DNA of 53,864 nt from a virus. The position numbers and the translations under genes are program-made. The notes beneath the pieces are model-generated. The model was not told the origin of the DNA, searched no databases, and was given only the letters and a program-made list of their open reading frames with translations. The DNA lies in IMG/VR virus record IMGVR_UViG_3300034068_000313, positions 1-53,864 of that record. The stretch is one strand, 5' to 3'. Each line of letters opens with the position of its first letter. The first letter of the stretch is position 1. Shown here one piece after another: positions 8,008-37,246 of this stretch.

Positions 8008-8465
8008 CTGCTTGTGCCTGCCTGATAATGCTTACGCACATACGCAGTCAAGACGCGGGCGTAGTTCTTGGTGAACTTTTGGAACGGTCGCTCAAGGTAC
8101 TTCGGTCCACGGCCCGTCGCAGGGTCAATACCCGGACCTGTACCTGAACGCTTGCCGACTTTGCTTTTGTTCGGTGGCTTCGGCGGGTGGTAGAAGTCAA
8201 GCCGCTCGTGTTGAACGAGTGCGTACTTGGCGTCGTAACCAACTGCGATCGAATACTTGCTTGCACCTTTGACCTCTAGTTGAGTTTTGCTACCCGCCAA
8301 GATGCCCTCGTCGAACGGTACAAGGTTTTGACTCTCGGCGAGTATGTCCTCAGCCATGTTGTACAGCCCAGCGTTCAAAGCACGAGTGATACCGTCAGCG
8401 TCAGCAATCAACGCGAGGCGTATCTCTTTCATACCCCTGTCTGAGAGTTTGACTGTGACGCTCAT
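8004..8465 (-). CDS. HK97 gp10-like head-tail joining / neck protein
   Basis: This 153-residue basic protein starts MSVTVKLSDRGMKEIR. Its middle part, AEDILAESQNLVPFDEGILAGS followed by VGYDAKYALVQHERLDFYH, is typical of the HK97 gp10 family of head-tail joining proteins. The lysine-rich tail has PKYLERPFQK. The start ATG 8465 overlaps the upstream TAA by one base. Confidence 0.75.
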   Translation of the reverse strand: MSVTVKLSDRGMKEIRLALIADADGITRALNAGLYNMAEDILAESQNLVPFDEGILAGSKTQLEVKGASKYSIAVGYDAKYALVQHERLDFYHPPKPPNKSKVGKRSGTGPGIDPATGRGPKYLERPFQKFTKNYARVLTAYVRKHYQAGTSR

Positions 8466-10131: not shown

Positions 10132-11082
10132 TCAGGCCGAAACAGGGTTGCTGAAGAAGTAGCCGAGTGAAGTTGAAACGGCCTTGAAGTCCCAAGCCGA
10201 TTCGATTTCAAGACGGTCAGCACGGAGATGGTCCATACGGAAGCGGCTCACAGCAGTTGAAGTACCGAGGCCACCGCCAACACCACTCCACACGAAGTTG
10301 TATCCAGCAGAAGCGGTCATCAAACCAGCCGACGGTGCGACGTAGCACAACAGTGCGTCCTTGTCACCCATCTGTGCGTACGATGCCGAAGCACCTTCTT
10401 GCGCCGAGTTGTACACGCCCTTCATGACCATCACGCGAGGCACATCGAGCACCTTGCCGATGAGTTCAGGAGTGATGCTGTCTGCTGAGGTGTACTTGTA
10501 ACGGTCGACGAAGTCGCTGTGGTTACGGAGAGTCTTGTAGGCAGCGTATGAAAGCACCAACGTGTTAGGCAGGTAGCCAGTGTTGCTCAAGACGGTGTTG
10601 ACACCAGTCTGAATGTCACCGATTGGGTCGGAGCCTGAAGCGTCCCACAACGTCGACGGAGTGTTGTCAGTTCCCCAAACAGAGGTGGTGAAGAACTTGC
10701 TAGCCCAATCGCGTTCCTGACGGATCATCATTTGATGAGCCAAGAACTTGGTGGCGTCCATGTCGGGGTTCAACGGTGAATCGCTGTTCGCACGAACTTG
10801 GTCGCCGATGTCCTTGTGCAATGCCCACACCTGTGAGGAGTAGGTCGAAGTCGACAAGGAGTAACCGCTACCTGCGGACTCGGTTCCGTCTGCACGGTAC
10901 TGAGCCTGATCACGGTAGAAGTCAGCCTGCGAGTACGTGAAGTACAAGTCGCTCTGCTTCGTAACGGGAACAGTGGGGAACACCTTTGACGCAACGAAGT
11001 TGTCTGCCTCGTTCATGAAAGCGACGCTCAAGTTGGTGAGCACCGCATCAATATGGACTTGGTTCTGAGTGGGCTGTGCCAT
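10132..11082 (-). CDS. Major capsid protein
   Basis: This 316-residue protein is the main shell subunit. It opens MAQPTQNQVHIDAVLTNLSV and has FVASKVFPTVPVTKQSDLYFTY, then YSSQVWALHKDIGDQVR and LSYAAYKTLRNHSDFVDRY. This fits the family of HK97-fold capsid proteins that open with 'A...n...F...F..vPV.k.s..y..y'. There is no long N-terminal delta domain, which fits the separate scaffold gene upstream. It lies between the cement protein and connectors. Confidence is high from order, length and pattern. Confidence 0.85.
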   Translation of the reverse strand: MAQPTQNQVHIDAVLTNLSVAFMNEADNFVASKVFPTVPVTKQSDLYFTYSQADFYRDQAQYRADGTESAGSGYSLSTSTYSSQVWALHKDIGDQVRANSDSPLNPDMDATKFLAHQMMIRQERDWASKFFTTSVWGTDNTPSTLWDASGSDPIGDIQTGVNTVLSNTGYLPNTLVLSYAAYKTLRNHSDFVDRYKYTSADSITPELIGKVLDVPRVMVMKGVYNSAQEGASASYAQMGDKDALLCYVAPSAGLMTASAGYNFVWSGVGGGLGTSTAVSRFRMDHLRADRLEIESAWDFKAVSTSLGYFFSNPVSA

Positions 11083-12999: not shown

Positions 13000-14147
13000 G
13001 CCTTGTACTCCTTACCTCGATACATTGCCCAGCCGTCGTGAATCGCTATTTGCTCATAGCAGAAGCGACCCGACTCAGGGTCGTAGGGAATGACCGCCAG
13101 CCCTTGCTGCCAATCTTCGTATCGTGTGAGTGGTCGCCCGTTGAGGTCTGTTCCACCACGTGTGCTTGGTACTGCGCCGTCGACTCGGCATAGGCAACCC
13201 GGACTAGCGGCTAGGACTGTACGTGGTCCGTCGTGGTCCTCGCGTGTCCGTTCTGCCCATTCACGTCGATGAATGTGTCCGTAGATGACTGACGACTTTT
13301 CTTGACCGAGGTACTTGTGCGCTGTTGAGCCACCGCTCGCAACCCTGTCGCCGTGGATAACTCTTAGACGCTCGGTAATCCATACGCTTGACGCTGGGTA
13401 TCCGGGTCTGTACTCAATGTCGACCTCATCAAGACGACAGAGAAACGGTACAGACATCACAGGCCATGACTCGGGTAGCGCACCACGCTTGAGACCAAAC
13501 GCAGCAGAGGCGTTCTGTAGTAAGAACTTCGGCAAGCGTTCCTCGTGGTTGCCAGCCAGCCAAATGATCTTTGCGTTCGGGGCTGCGGCTCGAATCTGTG
13601 CGGCGAGTGTTGTTGCCCTGTCGATCGTTGCTTGTGTTGTTTGTTGGTAAGCCTTAGTCACGATGTACTTGCCGAGTTCAGCGAAGTCAAGGTTGTCGCC
13701 AACGAGCACAACAAGGTCAGGATTGACGTCAGCCAAGATGGACAACGCAACACTGATCGCGCGCTCATCGTGTATTGCCTCAAGTGAACCATCTACAGCG
13801 GAGAAGTATCCGCATTGAATGTCAGGGAGCACAACAGCGACAGGCCAACCCGACTTCGCTTTGGTTGCTTTCGCTGCGGGGAGTTTGACTGCTGGACCCT
13901 GTTGAACGACAGGCCACTCAGGACCCGTCTCCCATTTCGGTGAGAACTGAACGCCTGTGAGGTCGTGTACTGACGCTTCGCCTGTCTCTGTGTCCTTTGT
14001 GACTGCTTGATACAGTGACACCCTTTTGATCGCACCGATCTCATCGATGTCTATTCCGTTGCGTTCTAAGAGTTCCGCGATACGCCCTAACGACAGGCGC
14101 TTGGCACCCGCCGAGTTTTCTTTGTCGATGTCATCTCTAAGACTCAC
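12996..14147 (-). CDS. Calcineurin-like metallophosphoesterase
   Basis: A 383-residue protein with metallophosphoesterase motifs in order: LPDIQCG, LVVLVGDNLDF, WLAGNHEERLP, VIHGDRVASGG and VIYGHIHRRE. These supply the two-metal site for phosphoester cleavage. The first 110 residues are a separate helical part (GRIAELLERNGIDIDEIGAIKRVSLYQ) that may bind DNA or a partner. I choose GTG 14147, nine bases after GAGGGG; upstream in-frame starts crowd the ribosome site. In phages such enzymes may act on nucleic acid ends or nucleotides; the substrate is unknown. Confidence 0.8.
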   Translation of the reverse strand: MSLRDDIDKENSAGAKRLSLGRIAELLERNGIDIDEIGAIKRVSLYQAVTKDTETGEASVHDLTGVQFSPKWETGPEWPVVQQGPAVKLPAAKATKAKSGWPVAVVLPDIQCGYFSAVDGSLEAIHDERAISVALSILADVNPDLVVLVGDNLDFAELGKYIVTKAYQQTTQATIDRATTLAAQIRAAAPNAKIIWLAGNHEERLPKFLLQNASAAFGLKRGALPESWPVMSVPFLCRLDEVDIEYRPGYPASSVWITERLRVIHGDRVASGGSTAHKYLGQEKSSVIYGHIHRREWAERTREDHDGPRTVLAASPGCLCRVDGAVPSTRGGTDLNGRPLTRYEDWQQGLAVIPYDPESGRFCYEQIAIHDGWAMYRGKEYKA

Positions 14148-18315: not shown

Positions 18316-19824
18316 CTATATCAGGGCAGCGTCGGGCAAGTCGGCTTCCATGCGTTGAGCCATACCCCCGATGGAGTAGCCACGGAGTTTGCCCGCCTTG
18401 ACCAAGTCCCACGCCCACGGTTCCCACACGACGCCCATGAATGGGGTGTTGCTGGGGAACTTGTACATCGTTGTGCCTTCACCCGGAACAACAAGGTCGG
18501 CCTCGACAGGGAACGGCAGTGTCAGTATCTCAACCATCTCACCCGCGGGTCGTTCTCCGTGTTGCAAGTACACAGTGCGATCACCTTTGCGTACCCAATC
18601 CCACAGTGCGAGTTGCAATGTTTTCTCGTCTGTGAATTCGCCGTGTGCGTCCTCAACTCCGGGTACGTACCAAGGTCCAAGCGTGTATCGCTGCTCGTCA
18701 GCCTTAGCGACCACCGCTGTGGTGTTCTTCAAGATGAGATCAACTTTGTCGACTTGGGTCAATGAGTACGGTCGGGCGACGCCTCGTAGTTCGATGTCGT
18801 CCTCAAGGATGTCGTGAACCATCTTGTGCGCTGGTGAAACCTCATTCAGTTTGTGGAAGTCGTCGTGCCACTCAATGAGTTTCTCTGTTGTTTGAGGCAT
18901 TGCTCGGTCTTGTGAGAAGCGTTCAATCTGTGCGAGGCGGTCGGCGGCTTCGGCTTCACTGACGTAACAACCGAACGAACGACCTGTTTCACTGATGACA
19001 CAGAACTGACCGCCCACTTGCTGGACTGCTCGACGGACCATTCCCATACCGCTCATGCCGTCCATCACGGGTTCTTCGGCGTCGTCCATACCCTCGCCGC
19101 CTTCGGGCATAGCGAGGCTTTCACCTTTGTCGCCGTACACGACCATCTCGGCTTCGTGGATCAGTGTCATAACCATTGCGCGTAAGTCGCCGCGTGCGGT
19201 GTTCAACAGACCGAGGTACGCATGAGTCAAGCACTCGACAGGGTTTGAGTACCCGCCGTTCTTCTTCATACCCTTGTGCATTGTCTCATCGACGTACATT
19301 GCTCGTACTGCGTTGATGACTGTCATGATCTTGTCGAGCAGTTCGTCCGTCTTTGGACCCATCTTCACTGCGGCACTGTAAGCGTTCAACAGACTGTCAA
19401 GTGGGTCGTAGCCCTCGTCGTCGTCTTTCATTTCGTAGCCGTACATCTTGTCTGCGTCCATGCCTTGTCCTTTGTTTAGTTCTCCCGACTCAATGAGTTG
19501 GTCTCGTTTGCGTTCTGCCCATAGGCGCGCTCTGTCTCTATTCGCTGAACCGACGTCGCCGCCCCACAACAGCCAAGCAACTTGACCCGGAGTTGGTCGT
19601 TCACTGTCGCCTGCCTCGTATGCCTGTGCTTTGGGGCTGGCTAGGTCGCTCTCATGTCGTGCGAGCCATGCTGCCATTCGCATTACCTTGTCAGGGCTGA
19701 CACTGCCTGCGACCATTTGTCGTGCTTCACGTATCGTCTTTGGTACGAGTCCGTCGCCCGCATACTCAAGTAGTTCGAGACCACGCTTTGCGTTAGCGGA
19801 TACGAACGAGGGAACTGCGACCAT
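18316..19824 (-). CDS. Prohead protease, XkdF-like
   Basis: A 502-residue protein. Its last ~170 residues (from LNEVSPAHKMVHDI, then PVEADLVVPG, FMGVVWEPWAWDLVKAGKLRGYSIGGMAQR) match the XkdF family of putative phage serine proteases that trim the prohead, where 'W..vk.G.l.G.SigG' is the closing signature. The first 100 residues (VSPDKVMRMAAWLARHESDL, PTPGQVAWLLWGGDVG) are a helical module often found in such phage proteins. It follows portal and MuF, the expected order, and ends at the boundary element. Confidence 0.75.
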   Translation of the reverse strand: MVAVPSFVSANAKRGLELLEYAGDGLVPKTIREARQMVAGSVSPDKVMRMAAWLARHESDLASPKAQAYEAGDSERPTPGQVAWLLWGGDVGSANRDRARLWAERKRDQLIESGELNKGQGMDADKMYGYEMKDDDEGYDPLDSLLNAYSAAVKMGPKTDELLDKIMTVINAVRAMYVDETMHKGMKKNGGYSNPVECLTHAYLGLLNTARGDLRAMVMTLIHEAEMVVYGDKGESLAMPEGGEGMDDAEEPVMDGMSGMGMVRRAVQQVGGQFCVISETGRSFGCYVSEAEAADRLAQIERFSQDRAMPQTTEKLIEWHDDFHKLNEVSPAHKMVHDILEDDIELRGVARPYSLTQVDKVDLILKNTTAVVAKADEQRYTLGPWYVPGVEDAHGEFTDEKTLQLALWDWVRKGDRTVYLQHGERPAGEMVEILTLPFPVEADLVVPGEGTTMYKFPSNTPFMGVVWEPWAWDLVKAGKLRGYSIGGMAQRMEADLPDAALI

Positions 19825-19849: not shown

Positions 19850-20134
19850 TCAGTTGGTTGTACCGCGTGACTGTTTCGGGGGTGTCGGTGTGAAGGGTTC
19901 AACAGTAGTTACAACAATTCTAGGCGTCATATCGTAAACACTTTGCAACCACTCCATAGCGGTTCGTAGCGTGTTCGCTTTGTCTTTCGGGTTATAGGTG
20001 TACATGGTCCGATATGGCTCAGTGACTACTTCGTAATCGTTATCGGCTACCCATTGCTCGACCTGTTCTTGGTATGTGTATTTGCCGTCCTCAGAAACGA
20101 TCTCTATACCGTCTGCTTCTAATATCCAATCCAT
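19850..20134 (-). CDS. Hypothetical protein
   Basis: A 94-residue protein from ATG 20134 (MDWILEADGIEIVSEDGK), placed 4 bases after GAGGACC. A TTG six codons upstream overlaps the MuF stop by a few bases and is possible. It has EQVEQWVADNDYEVV and LRTAMEWLQSVYDM and a proline/threonine-rich end. No function is recognised. Confidence 0.5.
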   Translation of the reverse strand: MDWILEADGIEIVSEDGKYTYQEQVEQWVADNDYEVVTEPYRTMYTYNPKDKANTLRTAMEWLQSVYDMTPRIVVTTVEPFTPTPPKQSRGTTN

Positions 20135-20141
20135 GTGGTCC

Positions 20142-23100
20142 TCACAGTCCAACCAAGATACCTAATAAGTACCTAATGTATTCATCACCATTTTTTCGCA
20201 TACCTGCCCAGCCTTCATAGAACAGTCGCTCAACTCCTCGCGTCGTCACCTCTGTTGAACCCCACGTGTAGAGGCGACCTGTGTACAGGTCGTTGACTCC
20301 TAAGTCCCAACCTACCTCACCTTTGGTAATTGTCTTAGGTTTGCTCGAACTTGTGAGACCGCGTTTCTTACCTAAGCGGTTGATGATTAGGTATTCACTA
20401 TTGGTGACACCTCGTACGTCCTGAACGCTGTGTTGGAACTCATGGGCTAGAGTCGAACGCCAACCTCTAATGCCTTTACCACTGTTCGTCTTATCACCAC
20501 TCAAAGCGATTGTTCGTTCTCTCGAACTGTTGTAACCACGCTTCGTAAACTTGAGTGTCCAACCTGAACCTCGTGTTTGCGTGATCGTGTCCTCAACCCA
20601 TTCCGCGGGCAACATTCCGTCAAGTTCCTCAATGGCGTCTGTCCAATCTTTCTTCTTCACACCAGTGGGCAGTTTCACGTCACGGAAGTAACTGGCTATC
20701 GACGCTCTCGGTTGTCCGTACCTTGGTCGTGATGCTCGCAGTACGTCCTTCAGTACAGCGTTGTGCATATCGACTACCCGCTTGGCGATCTTGCCCTTTT
20801 CGGCACGCAGTTGTAGCACTTTGTCGTTCACTTTACCCCTCGCGTCCATCGCTTGACGCCAACGTTCAATGGCCTCGTTTAGTTCGGGGACCTTCGCAAA
20901 TTCATCGAAGCGTGTTGAACTAAGACGGATATCACCAACACCTGCAAGGTCATCAATAATCCTTGCCCAAGTCTTCTCACCACCGAAGTAGTCCACCCTT
21001 AGAAGTTGCGCGAGTAAACGACCAGCGGACGTGTCGCCCTCTTCAACGATTGCTTCGAGTAAAGCCTTGCGGCTCTTGTCATCAAACACGAGAAGCGTGT
21101 TTGCTACTTCGTCCTGTACTGGTAGGTCAACATACGACATGAGGGCTTTGGTTCTAGGGCTAACTGCGTCACTCGTGATTCGATCTAATATGCTGGTCCA
21201 CGCTTTGCGGTATTCCGACGTCATGTTCAAAGCCATTTTGTCGAGTTCATACTTCGCCTCGTCAATCAATTTATCTATGGCTCGGATGTCGTCTTGGGCT
21301 GTTGGGTCCAGTCTGCGGACCTCCTGCTCGATCTTGGCTAGTACACGAGCGCCTGCTTTATCGATAGCGTCCATCGCCGCTGTGTCATTGGGGTGTTCGT
21401 CCCAACCAATCCAGTCCGACGTCGAGCGAGACTTCGCGCCTGACTTTGATATGAGTGCAATGTCGTCACGTAAGTCTTCAATATCGACAACAAGGTCGGG
21501 GCGAGCACCACTCAACGGACCTGCTGTAGGGCTTAGGCCTGTCGGTGTTTGTACGGTGGGAAGTTTCATGTCAGGTCGTTGGAACATCTCACCGACCTTG
21601 AAGTTGTGTTGCTTCAAGTTTTCCTCAACACGGAACGCGCTGCTACCCTTCAGCGGTACAAACTCTTCCATCATTCCCGTGTTCCTGTTTGCCCTAACCC
21701 ACCTGCCATCGTTGAGACGCAGTATTGGCTGACCCAAATACTGCTCACCCTCAAGAACAACTATTCCCTCGCGACTGATTTCGAAGCCGACGACATCTCC
21801 ACTCGGTGGAACGTACTGCGACGCGGGTGCTGGGATTGGTGTTGGCTCAGGGACTACGGGTTTCGGTTCAGGGGCTACGGGCTTCGGTGGCTTCACGCCT
21901 GTTGGTTTGAACTCTTCACCGGGTTTGAACTTGTTTCGCTTCAAGTGTCGTTCAAGTTGTCCCGCTGCACTGTTCTGTGATGGTGTGAACTCTGTGTAGT
22001 AGTTGCCGTTCGGTTCGGCGATGCGTTCCCACTTGCCGTCGGCTGTTCGTCTTATAGGTGACCCGTTGTGGTAGGTGTCGGGTAGTTGAATTGTGCCATC
22101 AGTGTTGATACGGAACGCGGGTATCTTGCCGTCTCTGTCGAACTCTTGACGGTCAAGCAGAGTTGGCTTCACAGGTGGCTCGGGAACAACGACTACAGGT
22201 TCGGGAACGATCGGTGGCGTTGGTTCAGGTACTACAGGCTTCGGCGGTGTTGGTACTCCACCTTTGACAGCGCGTTCGATTTTGCCTGCGGCACTGTTGC
22301 GTGACGGAATGAACTCTTCGCGTACGCCGTTCTTATCATTCCTGAACCAGCGTCCTGTTGGGTCACGTTCGATGTCTGTACCCGGAACTTGAACACGTCC
22401 GTCGGAGTGAACATGGAACTCTACGTCCTCGCCACTTACGACACGACGTTCAACGGAGAAGCCTTCGGAAGGTGTTGTTGGTCGGGGTGCCGACACGACA
22501 TCGCCCGCGTCTAAGTTGGGCAACGGTGGGAAGTCATCGAGGTTCGGTACGTCGGGTACTGACACACGGAACGGGTCGCCGGGTGTGCCTGTGCCTAAGC
22601 CTTGCGTCGGTCGTCCTTGTGGTGAAGCGTTGAGCACCATTGTGCAACGGCAGTTGGGGTGCGCTGGCGGTGTCATCTTCTTGATGCTGAACGGTTTGTT
22701 GATCGGTTGGTTCTGTCCGTTCAACGGAGCACAGATTGGACATACGTCCATCGGTCCAGTGACCCACACTTTGCGTGCTGTTTGTTTGTTGATGAGTCCA
22801 CGGTCGGCTGCTTGGTTCCATGCTTGCTGTTTGCCTTCGTTGTAGGCCATCATGGTTTCGGTACGTGCGATTGTGCGTGCTCGTTGGCGTCGTAGTTTCT
22901 CTGCGTATTTGTTTGTGTCTGTTTTGATCTTCTCTAAAGCCTTGGTGCCTTCGATGCCTTGTGCTGTCAGTGTGTTGGCAACTTGTGTTGCTCTGTTGAA
23001 CAGTGCTTGCTCATACCTGACTGTGAGACCGTTAGCGTTGACACCGAGTGTGCGTGCCATGAGTTTGCCTGCGTCTGTACCCGGACTCACTTGCGACAGT

Positions 23101-23648
23101 ATGGCTCGCAGGTTCTTTGATGTACCTGCACGTGTGTCGCCTGCGCCGAACGACTGACCAACAACACGCCTGACCATTGCTAGTTGGTCCTTCTTCATGT
23201 TGGTGACCAGTTTGCTTGACTCGTCTCTAGCCCACTTCAAGGCTTCGGGGCTTTGTGCGTTGAATGAGAACGCCATTGTGATCTCTGCTGGTGTTGGCAG
23301 TTCTGCTTTGGTCAATGCGTTGATGAATTGCTGCGACAGGTCTTTGGCTTCTGCTTTGGCTGACTCGACGAGTTGTTTGTGTAGTTCGCTTGCTAACTCG
23401 GACTCAATGACAGAGAAGGCACGTTCGACTTCTTTCTCATAGCCTGTGTAGTAGATGTTGTTGACTAACTTCTCAAACTCTTCGGGGCGTATCATGCTGA
23501 AGCCGTCAAGCAACGACTCACTCATTGCTCGCTCGGCGCTGTTCAATGCGGTGTCACCAATGTTGCGTGCGTTATTGAATTCGATAACGCGTTTAGCAAC
23601 GAGCGGTACAGCCGTCGTTCGTTTGATGTGACGCCCGAAGATGGGCAT
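20142..23648 (-). CDS. MuF-like minor head protein with internal repeats and a C-terminal zincin domain
   Basis: A 1168-residue, multi-domain protein. Residues 1-345 are the MuF head-morphogenesis domain, ending CPICAPLNGQ and HPNCRCTM. A proline-rich linker then separates three related ~45-residue units starting near residues 418, 516 and 630 (W.R, E.F.P...SAA and similar). After a helical region the last ~120 residues carry HEFQH (1069-1073) and a downstream STEVTTRGVE glutamate (about 1133), a zinc metallopeptidase layout. MuF proteins enter the capsid; those with C-terminal enzymes may be injected with the DNA. The peptidase motif is seen directly; injection and toxicity are inference. 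Confidence 0.8.
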   Translation of the reverse strand: MPIFGRHIKRTTAVPLVAKRVIEFNNARNIGDTALNSAERAMSESLLDGFSMIRPEEFEKLVNNIYYTGYEKEVERAFSVIESELASELHKQLVESAKAEAKDLSQQFINALTKAELPTPAEITMAFSFNAQSPEALKWARDESSKLVTNMKKDQLAMVRRVVGQSFGAGDTRAGTSKNLRAILSQVSPGTDAGKLMARTLGVNANGLTVRYEQALFNRATQVANTLTAQGIEGTKALEKIKTDTNKYAEKLRRQRARTIARTETMMAYNEGKQQAWNQAADRGLINKQTARKVWVTGPMDVCPICAPLNGQNQPINKPFSIKKMTPPAHPNCRCTMVLNASPQGRPTQGLGTGTPGDPFRVSVPDVPNLDDFPPLPNLDAGDVVSAPRPTTPSEGFSVERRVVSGEDVEFHVHSDGRVQVPGTDIERDPTGRWFRNDKNGVREEFIPSRNSAAGKIERAVKGGVPTPPKPVVPEPTPPIVPEPVVVVPEPPVKPTLLDRQEFDRDGKIPAFRINTDGTIQLPDTYHNGSPIRRTADGKWERIAEPNGNYYTEFTPSQNSAAGQLERHLKRNKFKPGEEFKPTGVKPPKPVAPEPKPVVPEPTPIPAPASQYVPPSGDVVGFEISREGIVVLEGEQYLGQPILRLNDGRWVRANRNTGMMEEFVPLKGSSAFRVEENLKQHNFKVGEMFQRPDMKLPTVQTPTGLSPTAGPLSGARPDLVVDIEDLRDDIALISKSGAKSRSTSDWIGWDEHPNDTAAMDAIDKAGARVLAKIEQEVRRLDPTAQDDIRAIDKLIDEAKYELDKMALNMTSEYRKAWTSILDRITSDAVSPRTKALMSYVDLPVQDEVANTLLVFDDKSRKALLEAIVEEGDTSAGRLLAQLLRVDYFGGEKTWARIIDDLAGVGDIRLSSTRFDEFAKVPELNEAIERWRQAMDARGKVNDKVLQLRAEKGKIAKRVVDMHNAVLKDVLRASRPRYGQPRASIASYFRDVKLPTGVKKKDWTDAIEELDGMLPAEWVEDTITQTRGSGWTLKFTKRGYNSSRERTIALSGDKTNSGKGIRGWRSTLAHEFQHSVQDVRGVTNSEYLIINRLGKKRGLTSSSKPKTITKGEVGWDLGVNDLYTGRLYTWGSTEVTTRGVERLFYEGWAGMRKNGDEYIRYLLGILVGL

Positions 23649-23650
23649 GA

Positions 23651-24997
23651 CTAGACTTCCTCAGCCTGTCCTTGCGGCAGTCCTGCCAGCCCTCTCAAGT
23701 AGTTCTCAAGGTCTATGTCAGGGAACAGTGGTGCGCCTGCTTGTGTCAGTTGCTGTATGTAACGACCGATCGAATCGAGGTCGACGTTCTTTGGTGGTGT
23801 GTACGTCAACGTCGGGCAGAGTTCCATAGGTACACCGTTGAGTCGCATGAGGCGAGGGATGCCGTGGTTGTTGAACGTCTCTGCAATGTTTGACAGGTAG
23901 GCATTGAGTGATGTCAAGAACAGTTCGATCTTGCTTACTGATAAGGCTTGAGTGCCAACACCTTCGTGACCGAGTAACAAGAAGTCAGCCAGCACAGTCA
24001 TCGCGATACGTTGGTCGTACCGTGTGATGATCTCGTTCGTATCGAATTGACGACGACCGCCAGTGGACAGCAACTTCAAGTCATACGCAAGTAACTTGGT
24101 ATCGGGGTCGTACGCCAACGGGAACACGATGCCTTCTTGTTCGTCGCGCTTGATGTTGCGAACGATTTGTTTGATTGCTTCTAACGCGGCCTTCTCATCT
24201 GCTGTCGCGTTGTTCGACAGCATCTGTGGCGGTACGTAAGCAACGGGCATACCAGCAAGGTCACGTTCAATACCGATTGCTTCGATCTCTTGGATACGAC
24301 GCTTGTAGTACCACGACACGAAAGCGTTACGCAGAATGGAACGACCTTGTGGGTTGTTCATCTTTGTTGTGGTGCGGAACAACATTGCTTTCTCAATGGG
24401 AATGAACACGAGGCCTTTACCTGCTGCGCTCGGGTCCATTTGGTACATACCTTGAATACCGCCGTTGTTATCGAACTCCCATTTCTGCACAGTGAGTTGT
24501 GAACGGATTGGGAGTTTGCGCCAACCGATACGACCGTCGTTGTACTTCGATCGTGTGCTTGCGTCGTCTGTGTAACCCTTGCGGTACTTGTAAACGATCT
24601 CATGGTATGAGAAGCCGTACACGAGGAAGGTCAAGATGGCGGCGAGTGTGTCGTCCCATGATTGGGTCATGTCGCTAAGGCACGTTGATACGAACGCTGC
24701 CTCTGCTATTGCTTGCTCGTTAGTGGGGTCGGAAGGCTCTACTGACCAGTCGACGCTACGAACGATCATCTCGATGGCTTGAAGCATTCCACCTACGACG
24801 GCGTCGTTGTCTGCCATCTCACGGAAGTTTGAGTACCCTTGCTTGCCTTGTAGTTGCCTGAGGAAGTCGTCGTTGACGATTCCACCGTTCTGTCTAAGGC
24901 CTGACGAACCAACTTCCATGAAGTCAGTTGATGACTTCGCTTTGGCTACCTTGTCGGGTGCCTTAGTTGTTCGACCGTTGTGCTGCACGTTGCTCAT
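23651..24997 (-). CDS. Portal protein, Mu gp29 (DUF935)-like
   Basis: A 448-residue protein with MADNDAVVGGMLQAIEMIVR, YRKGYTDDASTRS and GWRKLPIRSQLTVQKWEFD, the pattern of the Mu gp29 portal family. The portal forms the DNA channel at one capsid vertex. It lies upstream of the MuF gene with which it normally works, and overlaps the preceding Gp88-like gene by four bases. Confidence 0.8.
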   Translation of the reverse strand: MSNVQHNGRTTKAPDKVAKAKSSTDFMEVGSSGLRQNGGIVNDDFLRQLQGKQGYSNFREMADNDAVVGGMLQAIEMIVRSVDWSVEPSDPTNEQAIAEAAFVSTCLSDMTQSWDDTLAAILTFLVYGFSYHEIVYKYRKGYTDDASTRSKYNDGRIGWRKLPIRSQLTVQKWEFDNNGGIQGMYQMDPSAAGKGLVFIPIEKAMLFRTTTKMNNPQGRSILRNAFVSWYYKRRIQEIEAIGIERDLAGMPVAYVPPQMLSNNATADEKAALEAIKQIVRNIKRDEQEGIVFPLAYDPDTKLLAYDLKLLSTGGRRQFDTNEIITRYDQRIAMTVLADFLLLGHEGVGTQALSVSKIELFLTSLNAYLSNIAETFNNHGIPRLMRLNGVPMELCPTLTYTPPKNVDLDSIGRYIQQLTQAGAPLFPDIDLENYLRGLAGLPQGQAEEV

Positions 24998-25776
24998 CGT
25001 ACATCGTCCTCGTTCACTCTCATTGGTGCTAGCGCACTCATAGTGCGTCCGTCGAACCTCTTGTTGGCGACTGGCAGGTTGTTCGCAACGATGCCGATCT
25101 TGTTTGTTGGTGCTACTACTGCGAGCAGGTCGTTGTCTGACTGATCGAAGTACCCTGCTTCTTGTAACGCTTGAAGTGTTGGGAACACGTCGGCGTGACG
25201 ATGTTTGTCTCTGTTGATCAAACGGTCTTGCTTGCCACCATAGGAGAACACGATCCTCAAGTTGCTTGGCATAGTGCCTTGGTACTCAATCACCATTGCT
25301 ACCTCTTTGGTGTATGCGTAGAACAGAACGTGCGGTACTTTGCTTGCGATGTTTATCCAGCGCATCAAGTATTCGGGTGAGTAGAAGTCGCCTGCGTCGT
25401 GTATGCGTACTGCTTTGCCACCGAGTTCTACCCATTGACGCAACCACGTGTCGTCAGGGTCGACGGGTAGGTCGTGTGGTTTGCCTGTGTACATCATTCG
25501 CTTATGTCGTACTTCCCTAAGCATCTGTGACTCCCATAGGTCGCCGTCGTACAGCACGTACTCAAGGTTCTGTAGGTGTCGGGCTTTGACGTTGCTGAAG
25601 TTGTATGTACCGAACTTGGCGTAGCACACGCGACCGCATGACCCTGCGTTGGGACAACAGTTCATTCGCTCACCATTCGTAAGCGTTACAACGTGCGCGG
25701 GAATGGTCCAGTTCCACACGCCCACCTTCCTGAGTTCACTGTTCTGCGATAGCAAACGTTTCGGCGGGTTGATCAT
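24994..25776 (-). CDS. Gp88-like cysteine protein
   Basis: A 260-residue protein with NCCPNAGSCGRVCYAKFGTYN (the cysteine cluster near residues 40-60), then VRIHDAGDFYSPEYLMRW and FYAYTKEV. This combination is the signature of the mycobacteriophage Gp88 family, a cysteine-rich group of unknown chemistry with radical-SAM-like flavour. It is inserted between terminase and portal and overlaps the portal start by four bases, so it is made with packaging proteins. Confidence 0.7.
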   Translation of the reverse strand: MINPPKRLLSQNSELRKVGVWNWTIPAHVVTLTNGERMNCCPNAGSCGRVCYAKFGTYNFSNVKARHLQNLEYVLYDGDLWESQMLREVRHKRMMYTGKPHDLPVDPDDTWLRQWVELGGKAVRIHDAGDFYSPEYLMRWINIASKVPHVLFYAYTKEVAMVIEYQGTMPSNLRIVFSYGGKQDRLINRDKHRHADVFPTLQALQEAGYFDQSDNDLLAVVAPTNKIGIVANNLPVANKRFDGRTMSALAPMRVNEDDVR

Positions 25777-27108
25777 TTAGATTCTCCAGTGTGAGGTCTG
25801 CGGTATGGATATTGGCGCTACTGCTATTGCTTGCTTGTTGCCGTCGACCATGAGTTCGGTCAATGCCCATACGAGTGCGTCGAGTCGGTCAGGACTGTCA
25901 CCATAGTCGGGAACCCAGCCGCATAGTTGATCTTCAAGTTGTGGGTAGAAGCCGACGTGGTGTACTCGGCCTTGCTCGTATAGGGCTGCGACAGGTTCTG
26001 CGCGTGTTCGTTTACCTCGTGAGGCGTGTACGAGTTTGATTGGTGCGTTGCGTTCCACTGTTGCGATGGTGTGTCGTACCATGTCGCCGCCTTGGTTGGC
26101 TTCCAAGACGATGCGGTCTGCTTTGTACTTGTGGTAGGCGAGCACGACTGCTTGCGCCCATTCAGCAGGGCTACCCTTCATTGACAGGTCGTCGAGTACG
26201 TAGCCTTGGTTATCTAAGCCGATGCCTGCAACGATGATGCCTGTCTCTGCTGACTCGGCTCTGTTGCTTATTGCGGGGTCGACAGCGACGACGATGCGCT
26301 TCATCTCGATATGCTTGACCACCCGTAGTTCGTCGAGTTTGCTTCTTTGCCATAGAGCACCTTCGAGGTCGTCTAAGACTTCGGCGTGGAGTTCTTGGCG
26401 TCCGAGTGTTGTGCCTTCGTAACGCTTGAGGATTTCGTCGACGAACGCTGGGGCTAGGTTCTTGACGTTCTCGTATGTCGAGCCGCGTGTGAGGTGGACA
26501 CTGCCGTCGTCTGTACGCATGAGTCGGCGTATGACATCAACGGGTCTTGGTGTGGTCGTTACTACTGAACGCGGGTGTGTTCCGATTCTAAGTCCGAGGG
26601 TGAGTTGGTCCCACGCTTCGGAGTACCGCCACGCTGCGAGTTCGTCTGCCCACGCTAGGTCGTGGTTGGGTCCACGTAGGCGGTCGGGTTCGTCGGCTGA
26701 GTACGCTGACGCTTGCGAGCCGTTGTGGAACGTGACTCGACGCTTTGATGGTTCGTACTGTGGTCGTTGGTGTGGTGGGAACACAGTGAGCAGGCCTGAC
26801 TCGCCTTCGATCATGACGTCGCGTACGTCGGCGGCTGTTGCCCCGACTAGGGCAATATGCTTCGCCGTACCGTTGTTCACTTGCTCACGAACGAACTCTG
26901 CGCCTGTGCGTGTCTTACCGAACCCACGCCCCGCAAGGATTAGCCACGTGCGCCAGTTGCCGTCGGGAGTTGATTGCTTTGGTCGACGCCATAGACGCCA
27001 GTCGTACAGCACCTCACGTTGCTGTTCGGGCGACAGTTCACCTACGAGTTCTGTGAGTTGTTCAGGTGTTAGCCCTGCCAACACTTCAGCCCATGACTTC
27101 TCAGTCAC
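25777..27108 (-). CDS. terL: Terminase large subunit
   Basis: A 443-residue packaging motor. The N-terminal ATPase has Walker A GRGFGKT (60-66) and Walker B LAWADE (151-156). The C-terminal nuclease has IVVAVDPAISN, then VLEANQGGDMV and DSPDRLDALVWAL, carrying the acidic residues that cut DNA. It overlaps the small subunit by 8 bases and starts at GTG. Length and motifs are typical. Confidence 0.93.
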   Translation of the reverse strand: MTEKSWAEVLAGLTPEQLTELVGELSPEQQREVLYDWRLWRRPKQSTPDGNWRTWLILAGRGFGKTRTGAEFVREQVNNGTAKHIALVGATAADVRDVMIEGESGLLTVFPPHQRPQYEPSKRRVTFHNGSQASAYSADEPDRLRGPNHDLAWADELAAWRYSEAWDQLTLGLRIGTHPRSVVTTTPRPVDVIRRLMRTDDGSVHLTRGSTYENVKNLAPAFVDEILKRYEGTTLGRQELHAEVLDDLEGALWQRSKLDELRVVKHIEMKRIVVAVDPAISNRAESAETGIIVAGIGLDNQGYVLDDLSMKGSPAEWAQAVVLAYHKYKADRIVLEANQGGDMVRHTIATVERNAPIKLVHASRGKRTRAEPVAALYEQGRVHHVGFYPQLEDQLCGWVPDYGDSPDRLDALVWALTELMVDGNKQAIAVAPISIPQTSHWRI

Positions 27109-33331: not shown

Positions 33332-34237
33332 TCAGGGCGTGACAGGGGTTTGATGCAGGGACAGCAACTCGGCTCGGGCTTCGGGGTTGGTCCTGAACAC
33401 TCCACGCATGGCACTCGTGACTGTGTCGCCACTCTTCTTGATGCCACGCATACTCATGCACGTGTGCTGTGCCGACACGACAATGCCGACGCCCTTTGGT
33501 TGCAAGTGTTCCTCGATTGCGTCAGCGAGTTGGCCTGTCAATCGTTCTTGGACTTGCAACCTGTTTGCGTAGCAGTCAAGCAGTCGTGCCAACTTCGACA
33601 AGCCGACAACACGTGACGTCGGTATGTAAGCGATCGTCGCATGACCGATGAACGGCAGAATGTGGTGCTCGCACAGTGACGTGAATGGCAACTGCCGTAC
33701 GACGACCATCTCGTCGTAAGCAACATCGAACGTCTTGCTCAAGATCACTGCGGGGTTGTCGTTGTAACCCTTAGTGAGTTCACGCCAAGCCTTGGTCACG
33801 CGCCGTGGTGTTTCGAGTAAGCCGTCACGTGTGGGGTCTTCGCCGACGTGTTGAAGCAAACGGATAACGGCGTCAACAGGGTCGCCGTCCTCTTTCTCCC
33901 AAGGGAACGCGAGCCAACGGTCAGTGGTGGTTGCGTTGGGTGAATACATTGCGGGCGACCAAGGTTTACGGAACAACGTCTCCACGTGGATGCCACCGTC
34001 GGGGCGAACCAGTTTCATTGTTCGTCCTGTGTCAATGAGGTCGTCAACGATCAACGTGTGCGGGTCGTCAGGTGTTTCACACAGTGGGAGACCAAGTTTG
34101 TTCGCGACGAGTGTTGCGACTACAGCACCGCCCGTAGGGATACCGTAGACGCCTGTTGGGTTGTTACGTACGCGGGCGCATAGTTTGTCGACCTCTTGGT
34201 GAATGTCGTTCCAAGTGAGAGTCAGGATTGTTGTCAT
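33332..34237 (-). CDS. folE: Phosphoribosyltransferase-GTP cyclohydrolase I fusion
   Basis: A 301-residue fusion. Residues 1-115 are a type I phosphoribosyltransferase with GIPTGGAVVA and the PRPP motif LIVDDLIDTGRT (62-73) and end with WLAFPWE, as in xanthine-guanine enzymes. Residues 120-295 are FolE: CEHH (189-192), SRVVGLSKLARL, RLQVQERLTGQLADAI and HTCMSMRG, including the zinc ligands. FolE turns GTP into dihydroneopterin triphosphate, the first step to preQ0. It follows queE and starts ATG 34237, 8 bases after AGAGGAG. The PRT part may return free guanine to GMP; that is inference. Confidence 0.9.
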   Translation of the reverse strand: MTTILTLTWNDIHQEVDKLCARVRNNPTGVYGIPTGGAVVATLVANKLGLPLCETPDDPHTLIVDDLIDTGRTMKLVRPDGGIHVETLFRKPWSPAMYSPNATTTDRWLAFPWEKEDGDPVDAVIRLLQHVGEDPTRDGLLETPRRVTKAWRELTKGYNDNPAVILSKTFDVAYDEMVVVRQLPFTSLCEHHILPFIGHATIAYIPTSRVVGLSKLARLLDCYANRLQVQERLTGQLADAIEEHLQPKGVGIVVSAQHTCMSMRGIKKSGDTVTSAMRGVFRTNPEARAELLSLHQTPVTP

Positions 34238-34238
34238 G

Positions 34239-34982
34239 TCATACTCCTCTTTGATCACCGAAGGCTAAGACGTGAAGGCGTGTGGTGACGTTGGTGCCTT
34301 CCGCTGTTGCGATGTCAAACAGATCGGGCAGACGCCGATTGATTTCGTCTGCGCTTCGACCCTCAGGCATCAAGTAAATATCTTTCATGGACAGGCCGTG
34401 GAGACGAACCATCTCTTTGATCTCTAACAGGTCACGTACAGGGTCGCAGATGACAAACTTGAACGAGTGTTGCGGACACTCGATGAAACGTTCAAGAGCG
34501 TTCGGTACGTAACGCTTCGCAACGTGGACCCCCGACGACGCAAGTTTCGGTGACACGTTCCACTGCACGAGTTCAAAGATTGCTAACGGCGGTTCAATCG
34601 TTCCGTTCGTTTCGATCTCAACGCGGTAGTCGGGGTTCACGTCGAGCAACAGGTGTACCAGTTTGACCAGTCCAGCCTTCTGTACCAACGGCTCGCCACC
34701 AGTAATGACGAGTCGGTTCGTACCGCTCGCGGCAAACCAATCAACAATCTCTTCAAGTGTTACGCGTGACAGTTGTTCGGCCTTGTCGTACTTGACTCCG
34801 TTCTTGCCTGTCCAATCCCATGTGAAGGGTGTGTCACACCACGTGCAGTCAAGGTTGCAAAGACCCAAGCGTAAGAACATGGCTGGCTTACCGAGTGATG
34901 GTCCTTCGCCTTGCAACGTAGGACCGAACTTCTCTGCAACACTTAGTGAGCGCCCGTTCTGTATCACGTAGTAGTCGGTCAT
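34239..34982 (-). CDS. queE: 7-carboxy-7-deazaguanine synthase (QueE)
   Basis: A 247-residue radical SAM enzyme that contracts the ring of 6-carboxytetrahydropterin to 7-carboxy-7-deazaguanine. It has the cluster-binding C42-x3-C46-x2-C49 (LCNLDCTWCD), the substrate-pocket FGPTLQGEGPS, the ITGGEP motif, and ETNGT. The ATG overlaps the queD stop by one base. Length and motifs match QueE. Confidence 0.92.
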   Translation of the reverse strand: MTDYYVIQNGRSLSVAEKFGPTLQGEGPSLGKPAMFLRLGLCNLDCTWCDTPFTWDWTGKNGVKYDKAEQLSRVTLEEIVDWFAASGTNRLVITGGEPLVQKAGLVKLVHLLLDVNPDYRVEIETNGTIEPPLAIFELVQWNVSPKLASSGVHVAKRYVPNALERFIECPQHSFKFVICDPVRDLLEIKEMVRLHGLSMKDIYLMPEGRSADEINRRLPDLFDIATAEGTNVTTRLHVLAFGDQRGV

Positions 34983-35425
34983 CAACTCGCCTGCCACGAC
35001 GCTGCATTCTTTTCGTTCTCCCAACAGGTCACACGAATGACCTTTGCGTTGGGGAATCTCATGGCGGTCAATGTAACTGCTTGGTCACGTACCCAATTGA
35101 CCATGCCTTCCATTGTTGGGTCCATGATGCGAAGGTCTAAAGCGTCGGCCGCACCTAGGTATTGGATCTGTTCGAGGCACGGGTCGTCCTCGCTCACTAG
35201 CACAGTGTGATCGAATTGGTATTCAAGAGCGTCCCGTAGAACTTTGAGGTCGGCGAAGTCAACTACCCAACCACGCTCGTCGCGTGTGCCTTCCCACTCA
35301 ACCTCGACCCAACGGTCGTAGCCGTGAAGGTAATGGCAGTGACCACGATCTCGCCATTGGCGGTGACAGCAGGGGAAGCCGCCGAAACGTTTGATCACTC
35401 TTAGGATTTCATCTTGGGTCGTCAT
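34982..35425 (-). CDS. queD: 6-carboxytetrahydropterin synthase (QueD)
   Basis: A 147-residue enzyme converting dihydroneopterin triphosphate to 6-carboxytetrahydropterin. It has FPCCHRQW (His21), then HCHYLHGYDRW with C30 and H34, VVDFADLK, the catalytic EYQFDHTVL, and DPTMEGM and CWENEKNA at the end. The usual HGH is HGY, so the third zinc ligand is changed or shifted to His31. It overlaps queC and queE, so the three are co-translated. Confidence 0.85.
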   Translation of the reverse strand: MTTQDEILRVIKRFGGFPCCHRQWRDRGHCHYLHGYDRWVEVEWEGTRDERGWVVDFADLKVLRDALEYQFDHTVLVSEDDPCLEQIQYLGAADALDLRIMDPTMEGMVNWVRDQAVTLTAMRFPNAKVIRVTCWENEKNAASWQAS

Positions 35426-36098
35426 AGTGTGGCCTCGCTAGGTAGTCGGTTGGATCTTCGATCCCTGCTAATTCAAATGCTTCACGGCGCTCAAAGCAAG
35501 TACCACATGACCCGCAATGAATTTCACCACCCTTGTAGCACGACCATGTATCAAGCCAAGGTACGTTGAGGTCGTTGCCGATGGTACAGATTCCGTCTTT
35601 GGGGATTTGTACGTACGGTGCAAACACTTTGAAGTCTTCGTCAATGAATCCTTCGTTGGCTACGAGTAGCAGGTTCTGTAGAGCGTCGATGAACTGTGGT
35701 CGGCAGTCGGGGTAGATGTAATGATCGCCTGAGTGGACAGCGGTAGCGAGTACGTTTGCGCCCACTGTGACGGCGTAGCCCGCAGCGATGTTGAGCATGA
35801 TGCTGTTGCGGTTTGGTACGACCGTCTTTCTCATGTTCTCTTCGGCGTAGTGACCGTCAGGTACGGGTGCATCGCTGGTCAGTGTGGACTTACTGATGAG
35901 TCCTGTGAGGTGTGTGATGTCAACGATCGTGTGGTTGAGACGGAGTTTGCCTGAAGTGACCTTGGCGTAGTCAAGTTCTTTCTTGTGTCGTTGTCCGTAG
36001 TTGAACGACATGAGATGAACGTCGTAACCCTTAGCCACAAGATCGTAGGTGAGAACTGTTGAGTCCATTCCACCGCTGACGATTGCTAACGCTTTCAT
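35409..36098 (-). CDS. queC: 7-cyano-7-deazaguanine (preQ0) synthase (QueC)
   Basis: A 229-residue ATP-dependent enzyme that turns 7-carboxy-7-deazaguanine into preQ0. It has the PP-loop SGGMDST (8-14), FNYGQRHKKEL, VPNRNSIMLNIAAGYA, and the zinc cluster C-x7-C-x2-C-x2-C (CYKGGEIHCGSCGTC). It overlaps dpdA by four bases. There is no fused amidotransferase domain, so the product is preQ0 rather than an amidated base. Confidence 0.93.
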   Translation of the reverse strand: MKALAIVSGGMDSTVLTYDLVAKGYDVHLMSFNYGQRHKKELDYAKVTSGKLRLNHTIVDITHLTGLISKSTLTSDAPVPDGHYAEENMRKTVVPNRNSIMLNIAAGYAVTVGANVLATAVHSGDHYIYPDCRPQFIDALQNLLLVANEGFIDEDFKVFAPYVQIPKDGICTIGNDLNVPWLDTWSCYKGGEIHCGSCGTCFERREAFELAGIEDPTDYLARPHYDDPR

Positions 36099-37246
36099 TC
36101 TGTTTCTCCTTTGGCTGCTGTGATTAGGTTTTCTATTGACCCCTCGGCGAGGTGTAGGTGTAAACCTTTGTCGCCTTGTGACTTTGTTTCAGTACCCGTC
36201 GCACGGTAGTGATGCAACTTGTTTGCCCTAGTGGGCAGTGGTACCGCGCCGTGTTTCTTTCTTAGGAACTGTTCGTACGCACGCCAAGAGTTAGCCGCTA
36301 CGGGAATGATCTTTGTTCTGTGGTAGCGCGAGCGGTCGGCTATGTCTTCAGGGTCGCCGCCGTACTTACGAATGAACGGTGCCAACTTGTAGATCGACTG
36401 TGCGTCGCCTACGCCACACGTTTCGAACTTACGACCTGTCCACACTGCGAGTCGACCGAAGCGGTGACCCATTCCCCACGACGATGAGTCAACACTGAAC
36501 CAAGGTAACGCTTGAATGATGTCGTTGCGTGTTTGCCCGAAGCCGTGAAACACTGTGTCCTTACCCTCAACTCGTTTGAAGCAGGTTGCTGTCCACTTCA
36601 ACGCTGTAGGTCCGGGTACACCTACCATTCCACCGAGCGCGATGTAGCCGTAGTCCTTTGCCATGTCGTCAAGCACTTTGAGGTCGGTGCCAGTGTGTAC
36701 GACTGGCATTGGGTTCAAGCCTTGGTTCTCTAAGTACCGTTGATTGACCGCTGTTGCTTTCGCATCTCTAATGACGTCAAGGTTTACGTATGTCGTGAAC
36801 AGTGATTCCCATTGCTTCAACCAAGCCGCGTAGTCCGCAACCTTTACGTCGGCACCCTGTGAGTAAGCACTGAACGCACCCGAGTCGGCGAACACCATTG
36901 GGCGTGTTGGGAACTTTGCTAACACTGCCGCGATGTCGACCTTCTTGTAGTAGTGATATGAGATCAACATCTTGAAGGGTTGTGCTTGTGTTGCTTGTGC
37001 GGTGGGGAGTTGTTTCTCTTCTCCGCTTAGGGCTAAGTGAAGGTTGAGTCCTTCGGTGTGTTCTTTCATGTCTGCCTCTGCGATTGGGGGAACACTGTTG
37101 AGAGCACTGAGTACGAGGTACACGTGCGGACCTGTGTTGGTGATTGCATTGGCTTCATCGGTCTTTGTGACAAGGTATACGTGAGGTCCGTTACTCGTTG
37201 ATGAGTGGGTCGGCGTAGTCGAGGAGTGTGTTGATTCGTTCGTCAT
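36095..37246 (-). CDS. dpdA: DNA 7-deazaguanine transglycosylase (DpdA)
   Basis: A 383-residue member of the TGT/DpdA family, which swaps guanine in DNA for a 7-deazaguanine base. Family text includes LISYHYYKK, the catalytic-type FADSGAFSAYSQG (Asp121), YVNLDVIRDA, PVVHTGTD and YIALGGMVG. It is unusual in carrying short related strands at both ends: PHVYLV at 21-26 and 40-45, LNLHLAL at 67-73, and LHLHLAEGS at 362-370. It overlaps the ParB-like gene upstream by 56 bases and queC downstream by four. No tRNA-specific end domain is visible, and all partners for preQ0 are beside it. Confidence 0.85.
   Translation of the reverse strand: MTNESTHSSTTPTHSSTSNGPHVYLVTKTDEANAITNTGPHVYLVLSALNSVPPIAEADMKEHTEGLNLHLALSGEEKQLPTAQATQAQPFKMLISYHYYKKVDIAAVLAKFPTRPMVFADSGAFSAYSQGADVKVADYAAWLKQWESLFTTYVNLDVIRDAKATAVNQRYLENQGLNPMPVVHTGTDLKVLDDMAKDYGYIALGGMVGVPGPTALKWTATCFKRVEGKDTVFHGFGQTRNDIIQALPWFSVDSSSWGMGHRFGRLAVWTGRKFETCGVGDAQSIYKLAPFIRKYGGDPEDIADRSRYHRTKIIPVAANSWRAYEQFLRKKHGAVPLPTRANKLHHYRATGTETKSQGDKGLHLHLAEGSIENLITAAKGETE

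Follow-up and report, generated by a model that had tools for sequence, protein, structure and literature searches.

A phage MuF head protein ending in a predicted M34-like zincin, with a linked small downstream gene

The gene and its parts

We analysed a virus record of 53,864 bases (IMG/VR record IMGVR_UViG_3300034068_000313; the whole stretch is called the window). One gene of its head module (P0001) encodes a MuF protein that ends in a predicted metallopeptidase of the zincin type, and a small gene downstream may encode a partner that neutralizes it. The initial annotation had placed the open reading frame (ORF) at 20142-23648 and named no strand; we confirm the frame and place it on the minus strand. 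The gene and its partner have the following features.

20142..23648, minus strand: MuF-zincin gene (P0001), an ORF of 1168 amino acids (aa), with a MuF domain (PF04233)
22638..22970, minus strand: MuF domain, aa 227-337 (Pfam PF04233, E=2.8e-11), within the conserved N-terminal aa 1-340
22254..22436, minus strand: repeat unit R1, aa 405-465 (shuffle test and profile)
21903..22139, minus strand: repeat unit R2, aa 504-582 (shuffle test and profile)
21573..21803, minus strand: repeat unit R3, aa 616-692 (shuffle test and profile), missing from L002
20751..21512, minus strand: mostly helical region ahead of the zincin, aa 713-966, the fastest diverging part, with a low-confidence model
20145..20750, minus strand: zincin (predicted metallopeptidase) domain, aa 967-1168, from alignments, an AlphaFold2 model and fold matches
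20430..20444, minus strand: HEFQH zinc motif, aa 1069-1073; H, E and H invariant in 13/13
20268..20285, minus strand: Y1122 to Y1127, two invariant tyrosines in a YTGRLY stretch (13/13)
20250..20252, minus strand: E1133, predicted third zinc ligand, invariant in 13/13
19850..20134, minus strand: partner gene for a predicted cognate immunity or inhibitor protein, 94 aa from the ATG at 20134

The MuF part read from the translation in the initial annotation is recovered by Pfam. The three related units described there are also real, although they are 61-79 aa long; the ~45 residues first given correspond to the best-shared core. Pairwise local scores among R1-R3 are 104, 78 and 110; shuffled sequences peak at 47-50, and 0/1000 shuffles reach any of the three. 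The units were placed by profile, with positions converted from stop-to-stop ORF numbering; their pitch is 99 and 112 aa, and the linkers between them are proline-rich. The sister phage L002 carries R1 and R2 only. The family as a whole does not share the repeats, since R3 lies inside an exchanged block (below) and is missing in L002. No match to R1-R3 was found among phages of the reference collection. The repeat profile matches L016 and L017 weakly. By eye, the MuF extensions of both contain several R1-R3-like repeats, of which the profile supports only one, weakly; in L017 the repeat-like stretch precedes a Pfam ADPrib_exo_Tox domain.

The predicted metallopeptidase domain

Relatives of the zincin were gathered via the sister phage, portal relatives and zincin scans, and 13 were aligned (window, L002, L013, L014, L027, L028, L184, L185, L186, L189 and three from L190). 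L095-L104 were excluded from the alignments, as they match only around HExxH and belong to a different class of large, multi-domain protein. Six residues (H1069, E1070, H1073, Y1122, Y1127 and E1133) are invariant in 13/13 aligned zincins, so the domain has both HExxH and the downstream glutamate ligand. The initial annotation had proposed a zinc site from HEFQH and a glutamate in STEVTTRGVE. Its numbering of E1070 is right, the second stretch begins at aa 1131, and this conservation, which extends to two cultured phages, lifts the motif above chance. We predict that E1070 is the general base and E1133 the third zinc ligand, roles partly taken from catalysis in M34 enzymes.

An AlphaFold2 model of the zincin, made from the 13-domain alignment, has a predicted local distance difference test score (pLDDT) of 80.5 and a predicted template modelling score of 0.75; an earlier model of aa 714-1168 from two sequences (pLDDT 48) was too poor for use. 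Among PDB structures, the model matches the catalytic domain of anthrax lethal factor (Z 10.0, 154 residues, root-mean-square deviation 4.1) and the Pro-Pro endopeptidases (PPEP)/Zmp1 (Z 7.5-8.8), all of them gluzincins of family M34. The zincin shares HExxH and the downstream glutamate with M34 gluzincins, and its modelled fold may be theirs as well. It differs from them in sequence (~8-16% identity in structural alignments) and in belonging to a phage head protein rather than a secreted one.

No Pfam family covers the domain, and it has no significant E in Pfam or PHROGs. Rows for gp120, BoNT and tRNA ligase (E 0.016 and above) were treated as chance. Among predicted viral structures the top match (E=6.9e-15, 52% identity in the aligned stretch) is labelled 'phage head morphogenesis domain containing protein' and has 1068 aa, so the databases already contain a relative in which the zincin domain is not named. 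The C-terminus has no match in reference phages by tblastn, and no relative of the zincin was found in sequenced genomes (0/396 genomes of one phylum, 0/4 in another set) or among plasmids. P0001 searched against 296 genomes gave 2 weak matches, both to the MuF region, and a final zincin scan added no new lineage.

Lactococcus phage 62503 and Bacillus phage vB_BboS-125 each have a head protein, directly after the portal, that ends in a zincin with the same invariant catalytic residues. The vB_BboS-125 protein (L238 767-2806) is annotated as NAD(+)-arginine ADP-ribosyltransferase and ends in the zincin at HMM E=4.6e-12 (HMM, hidden Markov model). A 72-aa gene follows the zincin gene in 62503 and an unannotated frame of ~90 aa follows it in vB_BboS-125. 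These zincins are only 21-23% identical to that of the window, and the frames downstream do not match the partner HMM described below (E 1.4 for the vB_BboS-125 frame). L190 2-14335 is a single frame that runs off both ends and spans at least 4778 aa; it has 3-4 zincin matches and an RNase_T domain.

Exchange of the C-terminus and the linked partner gene

Window and L002 (L003 and L004 encode the same protein as L002) are 91% identical in the portal, 96% in MuF aa 1-340, 92% in R1 and R2, and 94% in the XkdF-like protein encoded beyond the partner gene. In the C-terminus the figure is 41% for aa 713-1168, with 29% in aa 713-970 and 56% in aa 971-1168. Synonymous change is saturated in the C-terminus, against a synonymous divergence (dS) of 0.17-0.44 in MuF, portal and XkdF, which argues for exchange with a diverged allele and not faster protein evolution; accelerated point evolution of the C-terminus is rejected, given that saturation extends to synonymous sites. 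At the DNA level, 91% identity (blastn) ends at 21880 and resumes at 20162, with one 55-bp patch between. Low identity (0.65-0.79) spans the small ORF to about 19814, and values of at least 0.86 occur only within the XkdF-like gene. Between window and L002 the partners are 70% identical. Together, blastn and the identity profile give the exchanged block.

19853..21879, minus strand: block exchanged relative to L002, comprising R3, the helical region, the zincin and the (less diverged) partner

Across portal relatives the stretch after MuF varies from 12 to 1456 aa. Pfam, run on 20 of these extensions, found Zeta toxin in three (L027, L033, L038), ADPrib_exo_Tox in three (L017, L021 and L059, the last also with HNH) and sub-threshold LPD1 in three (L035, L039, L049); the others gave DUF3626, sub-threshold Peptidase_Mx or nothing relevant. 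Some MuF relatives carry other zincins, or nothing, at the C-terminus. The C-terminal part seen in the window, which the initial annotation had allowed might be lacking from all relatives, is found as a zincin of the same type in 8 unique MuF genes. In L184 it follows MuF and ADPrib_exo_Tox (E=8.1e-17), and in L027 and L028 it follows MuF and two Zeta domains (Zeta was scanned in L027). The MuF protein encoded at L071 9387-14633 has 1749 aa, 1456 of them in an extension where kinase-like and ADP-ribosyltransferase-like stretches can be made out by eye.

A second exchange is seen against L033. L027 is 86% identical to it up to L027 12037, just past the second Zeta, then has no match, and is 85% identical again from 13818; for L028 homology breaks at 8357 and resumes at 10150. 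The partner ORFs end at 13807 (L027) and 10127 (L028), so homology to L033 resumes ~10 and 22 nucleotides (nt) beyond the stop. These positions make the helical region, zincin and partner one block in L027 and L028. L033 has a different C-terminus there, followed by an unrelated small frame (59 aa as read from sequence). The exchange between window and L002 shares its right-hand edge with this one, and zincin and partner move as one block in both natural exchanges.

A partner ORF of 94-103 aa lies in the same place after every MuF gene that bears the window-type zincin, the distance between the last sense codon of MuF and its start codon being 0-11 nt. In the window, starting at an alternative TTG (20152) would make the partner gene overlap the stop of MuF. 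The partners are acidic (isoelectric point 4.1-4.8). Their homology was assessed with a leave-group-out HMM (five lineage groups, eight sequences), searched against 35,130 ORFs from 237 loci; loci duplicating a training contig were not counted as untrained. The left-out group was the best untrained hit every time, with E from 3.2e-10 (L014) to 0.0066; L184 gave 6.9e-10, L013/L185 1.9e-7 to 7.5e-6, and L027/L028 5.5e-4 to 8.7e-4. An earlier five-sequence HMM had been weak in leave-one-out use (L027/L028 E 0.0017-0.0059, L014 0.32) and did not find L013 or window/L002. No match to the partner was found among phages.

For the linkage count, 199 MuF loci were reduced to 166 with a complete 3′ end and at least 350 nt downstream, and these to 138 unique loci, 16 duplicate zincin loci being dropped. 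The partner follows 8/8 unique MuF-zincin genes and 0/130 other MuF genes (0/72 among those extended by at least 150 aa). More generally, a small downstream ORF follows 51/75 extended and 6/54 short MuF genes, as Jamet 2017 (PMC5576092) also reports. Both members of the pair are under purifying selection: the ratio of nonsynonymous to synonymous change in three pairs is 0.12, 0.16 and 0.19 for the partner and 0.19, 0.15 and 0.18 for the zincin. A mirror-tree correlation between zincin and partner (r=0.96) was rejected as evidence of coupling because it is not specific (MuF-partner r=0.97).

Genomic setting and interpretation

The order of the head module is terminase, GP88-family gene, portal, MuF-zincin gene, small ORF, XkdF-like gene and, further on, the major head protein. 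Neighboring features outside the pair are these.

25777-27108: terminase, head module
24994-25776, minus strand: GP88-family gene (PF17338, E=4.1e-43), between portal and terminase
23651..24997, minus strand: portal protein (PF06074, E=1.2e-35), directly upstream of the MuF-zincin gene
18316..19824, minus strand: XkdF-like putative serine protease (PF14550, E=7.8e-8)
10132-11082: major head protein, beyond the XkdF-like gene

The XkdF-like protein is likely a separate head maturation protease. Its gene matches 'RNA ligase' genes of Arthrobacter phages Kovu and Ottawa (L008 5579-6712; L009 5684-6823); Pfam assigns the C-terminus to a putative phage serine protease, and the ligase label looks doubtful. 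The nearest named phages by portal are Arthrobacter phages, at about 50%, which makes an actinobacterial host likely. Among genome contigs, the closest are short ones from Gemmatimonadetes and Acidimicrobiaceae bins, into which they may have strayed from phages. The window also has a 7-deazaguanine (preQ0-type) gene set at 33332-37246 (minus strand), which suggests modified phage DNA: GTP cyclohydrolase I with an extra piece fused N-terminally, a radical SAM (QueE-like) gene, a PTPS (QueD-like) gene, QueC, and a queuine tRNA-ribosyltransferase-like (DpdA-like) gene.

The initial annotation had likened the protein to polymorphic toxins. That likeness is well supported by the conserved MuF part, the exchangeable C-terminus with its predicted enzyme and the coupled small downstream gene. 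MuF polymorphic toxins (PMC3482391, PMC5576092) likewise have an N-terminal MuF domain, a place in the packaging and head module, a variable C-terminal enzyme and a small downstream ORF. Predictions of metallopeptidase MuF toxins date back to 2017, and Jamet 2017 (PMC5576092) gives a metallopeptidase domain in 20% of 191 putative MuF toxins. Unlike these toxins, the window zincin has no Pfam family and does have a recognizable family of cognate partners; repeats lie between MuF and toxin, and in relatives the zincin is stacked behind Zeta or ADP-ribosyltransferase domains. The MuF toxins Apk2 and Bxa are reported (PMC12226406, PMC11699363) to be neutralized by adjacently encoded immunity proteins, one of them a non-enzymatic binder. 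They share with the window a MuF-enzyme fusion beside a neutralizing gene, which in the window is only predicted; their enzymes, a (p)ppApp synthetase and an ADP-ribosyltransferase, belong to prophages, whereas the window has a predicted protease with its own partner family. The zincins of polyvalent proteins (Iyer 2017, PMC5512222) also have HExxH with a glutamate in a second helix and similarity to lethal factor endopeptidase, and coexist with other effectors, as in L027, L184 and L190. Unlike polyvalent proteins, the window protein has a single recognized enzyme; L027/L028 (Zeta) and L184 (ADP-ribosyltransferase) have more.

We therefore read the gene, with a probability of about 0.72, as a MuF polymorphic effector with an M34-like zincin as cargo, its ~95-aa partner as the cognate immunity or inhibitor protein, and the two as swapped together as a cassette. 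The observations behind this reading are the domain layout, the invariance of the catalytic residues, the resemblance of the modelled fold and the C-terminal hypervariability, together with the exclusive linkage of zincin and partner among MuF genes, purifying selection, and two exchanges with a common right boundary. We infer packaging, injection, proteolysis, toxicity, neutralization and the nature of the target. From gene position and homology, the N-terminal MuF part would direct the protein to the phage head, beside the portal. The helical region and M34-like zincin would form the C-terminal cargo, delivered with the DNA, and the zincin may then cut a protein in the infected or a neighboring cell. 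The partner would protect the producing cell from the zincin, and all three (helical region, zincin, partner) would pass among phages as a single cassette. The initial annotation had suggested that the protease could disable a host defence protein, and it may do so, but a partner that resembles a dedicated neutralizer is easier to square with an activity harmful in general than with one aimed narrowly at defence.

Several observations weigh against this reading. The partner homology of window and L002 is weak taken alone (E 0.0037-0.0066; next unrelated hit 0.86), and the Fisher p for the linkage of partner and zincin (3.8e-13) overstates independence, as the eight genes fall into only five lineage groups. 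Three non-MuF kinds of protein (L186-188, L189 and L190) bear the zincin with no partner hit, so the zincin need not always have a partner. The exchange between window and L002 replaced the zincin with a different allele of itself rather than with an unrelated toxin. Foldseek against the PDB gave no match for the zincin at E<=0.001 (best 0.014), and sequence searches against the PDB gave nothing meaningful. MuF toxins are described (PMC3482391, PMC5576092) as restricted to temperate phages; unlike these, 10/10 group records, which may be fragments, have no integrase (PF00589) or resolvase (PF00239), with positive controls.

It is possible, though we consider it unlikely, that the zincin is an injected effector while the ~95-aa partner serves as a chaperone for loading or folding, or is itself a further effector. 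Strict linkage and co-transfer would suit any obligate partner, and the record set has no lysogeny genes that would demand long-term immunity; against this, the position, small size and acidity of the partner resemble those of the non-enzymatic immunity genes of characterized MuF toxins.

The zincin could instead process its own polypeptide, cutting the proline-rich linkers after delivery and freeing an effector from MuF. Such a role has been proposed for zincins of polyvalent proteins (Iyer 2017, PMC5512222). It would suit a zincin at the extreme C-terminus, after two Zeta domains in L027/L028 and after an ADP-ribosyltransferase in L184, and a modelled fold resembling Pro-Pro endopeptidases. 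We regard it as improbable, because Pfam finds no second effector in the window, L002, L013 or L014, the Zeta and ADP-ribosyltransferase MuF proteins of sisters L033, L038, L017 and L021 have no window-type zincin, and Pro-Pro density is not raised over zincin-less extensions (8 vs 85, Mann-Whitney p=0.56; 8 vs 31 close ones, p=0.24). A role as head maturation or assembly protease required for virion building is very improbable: the gene does lie in the head module beside the portal and MuF proteins are phage head components, but a separate XkdF-like serine protease is encoded downstream, and in relatives whose portals are closely similar the zincin, or even the entire C-terminal extension, is missing, so the zincin appears dispensable for assembly.

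The architecture of this MuF effector belongs to a known kind; what is new is the family of partners, which is linked to the zincin strictly and as a block. In a limited search, we found no cognate inhibitor of a MuF metallopeptidase in the literature. The pair is defined by catalytic residues, cassette boundaries and allelic variants, and is directly testable; zincins of this kind also occur in cultured phages. More tentatively, the effector and its partner may be a weapon of non-lysogenic phages, in which an M34-like zincin is packed into the head on MuF and injected upon infection, the ~95-aa inhibitor is made late and protects the phage factory and progeny, perhaps also excluding superinfecting rivals, and the cassette is traded and stacked behind Zeta or ADP-ribosyltransferase domains. 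If true, the pair would form a toxin-immunity system that works outside lysogeny, either phage-versus-phage or phage-versus-host. Should the phages prove truly lytic, MuF toxin-immunity systems would extend beyond temperate phages, and whom the immunity gene protects would become the question.

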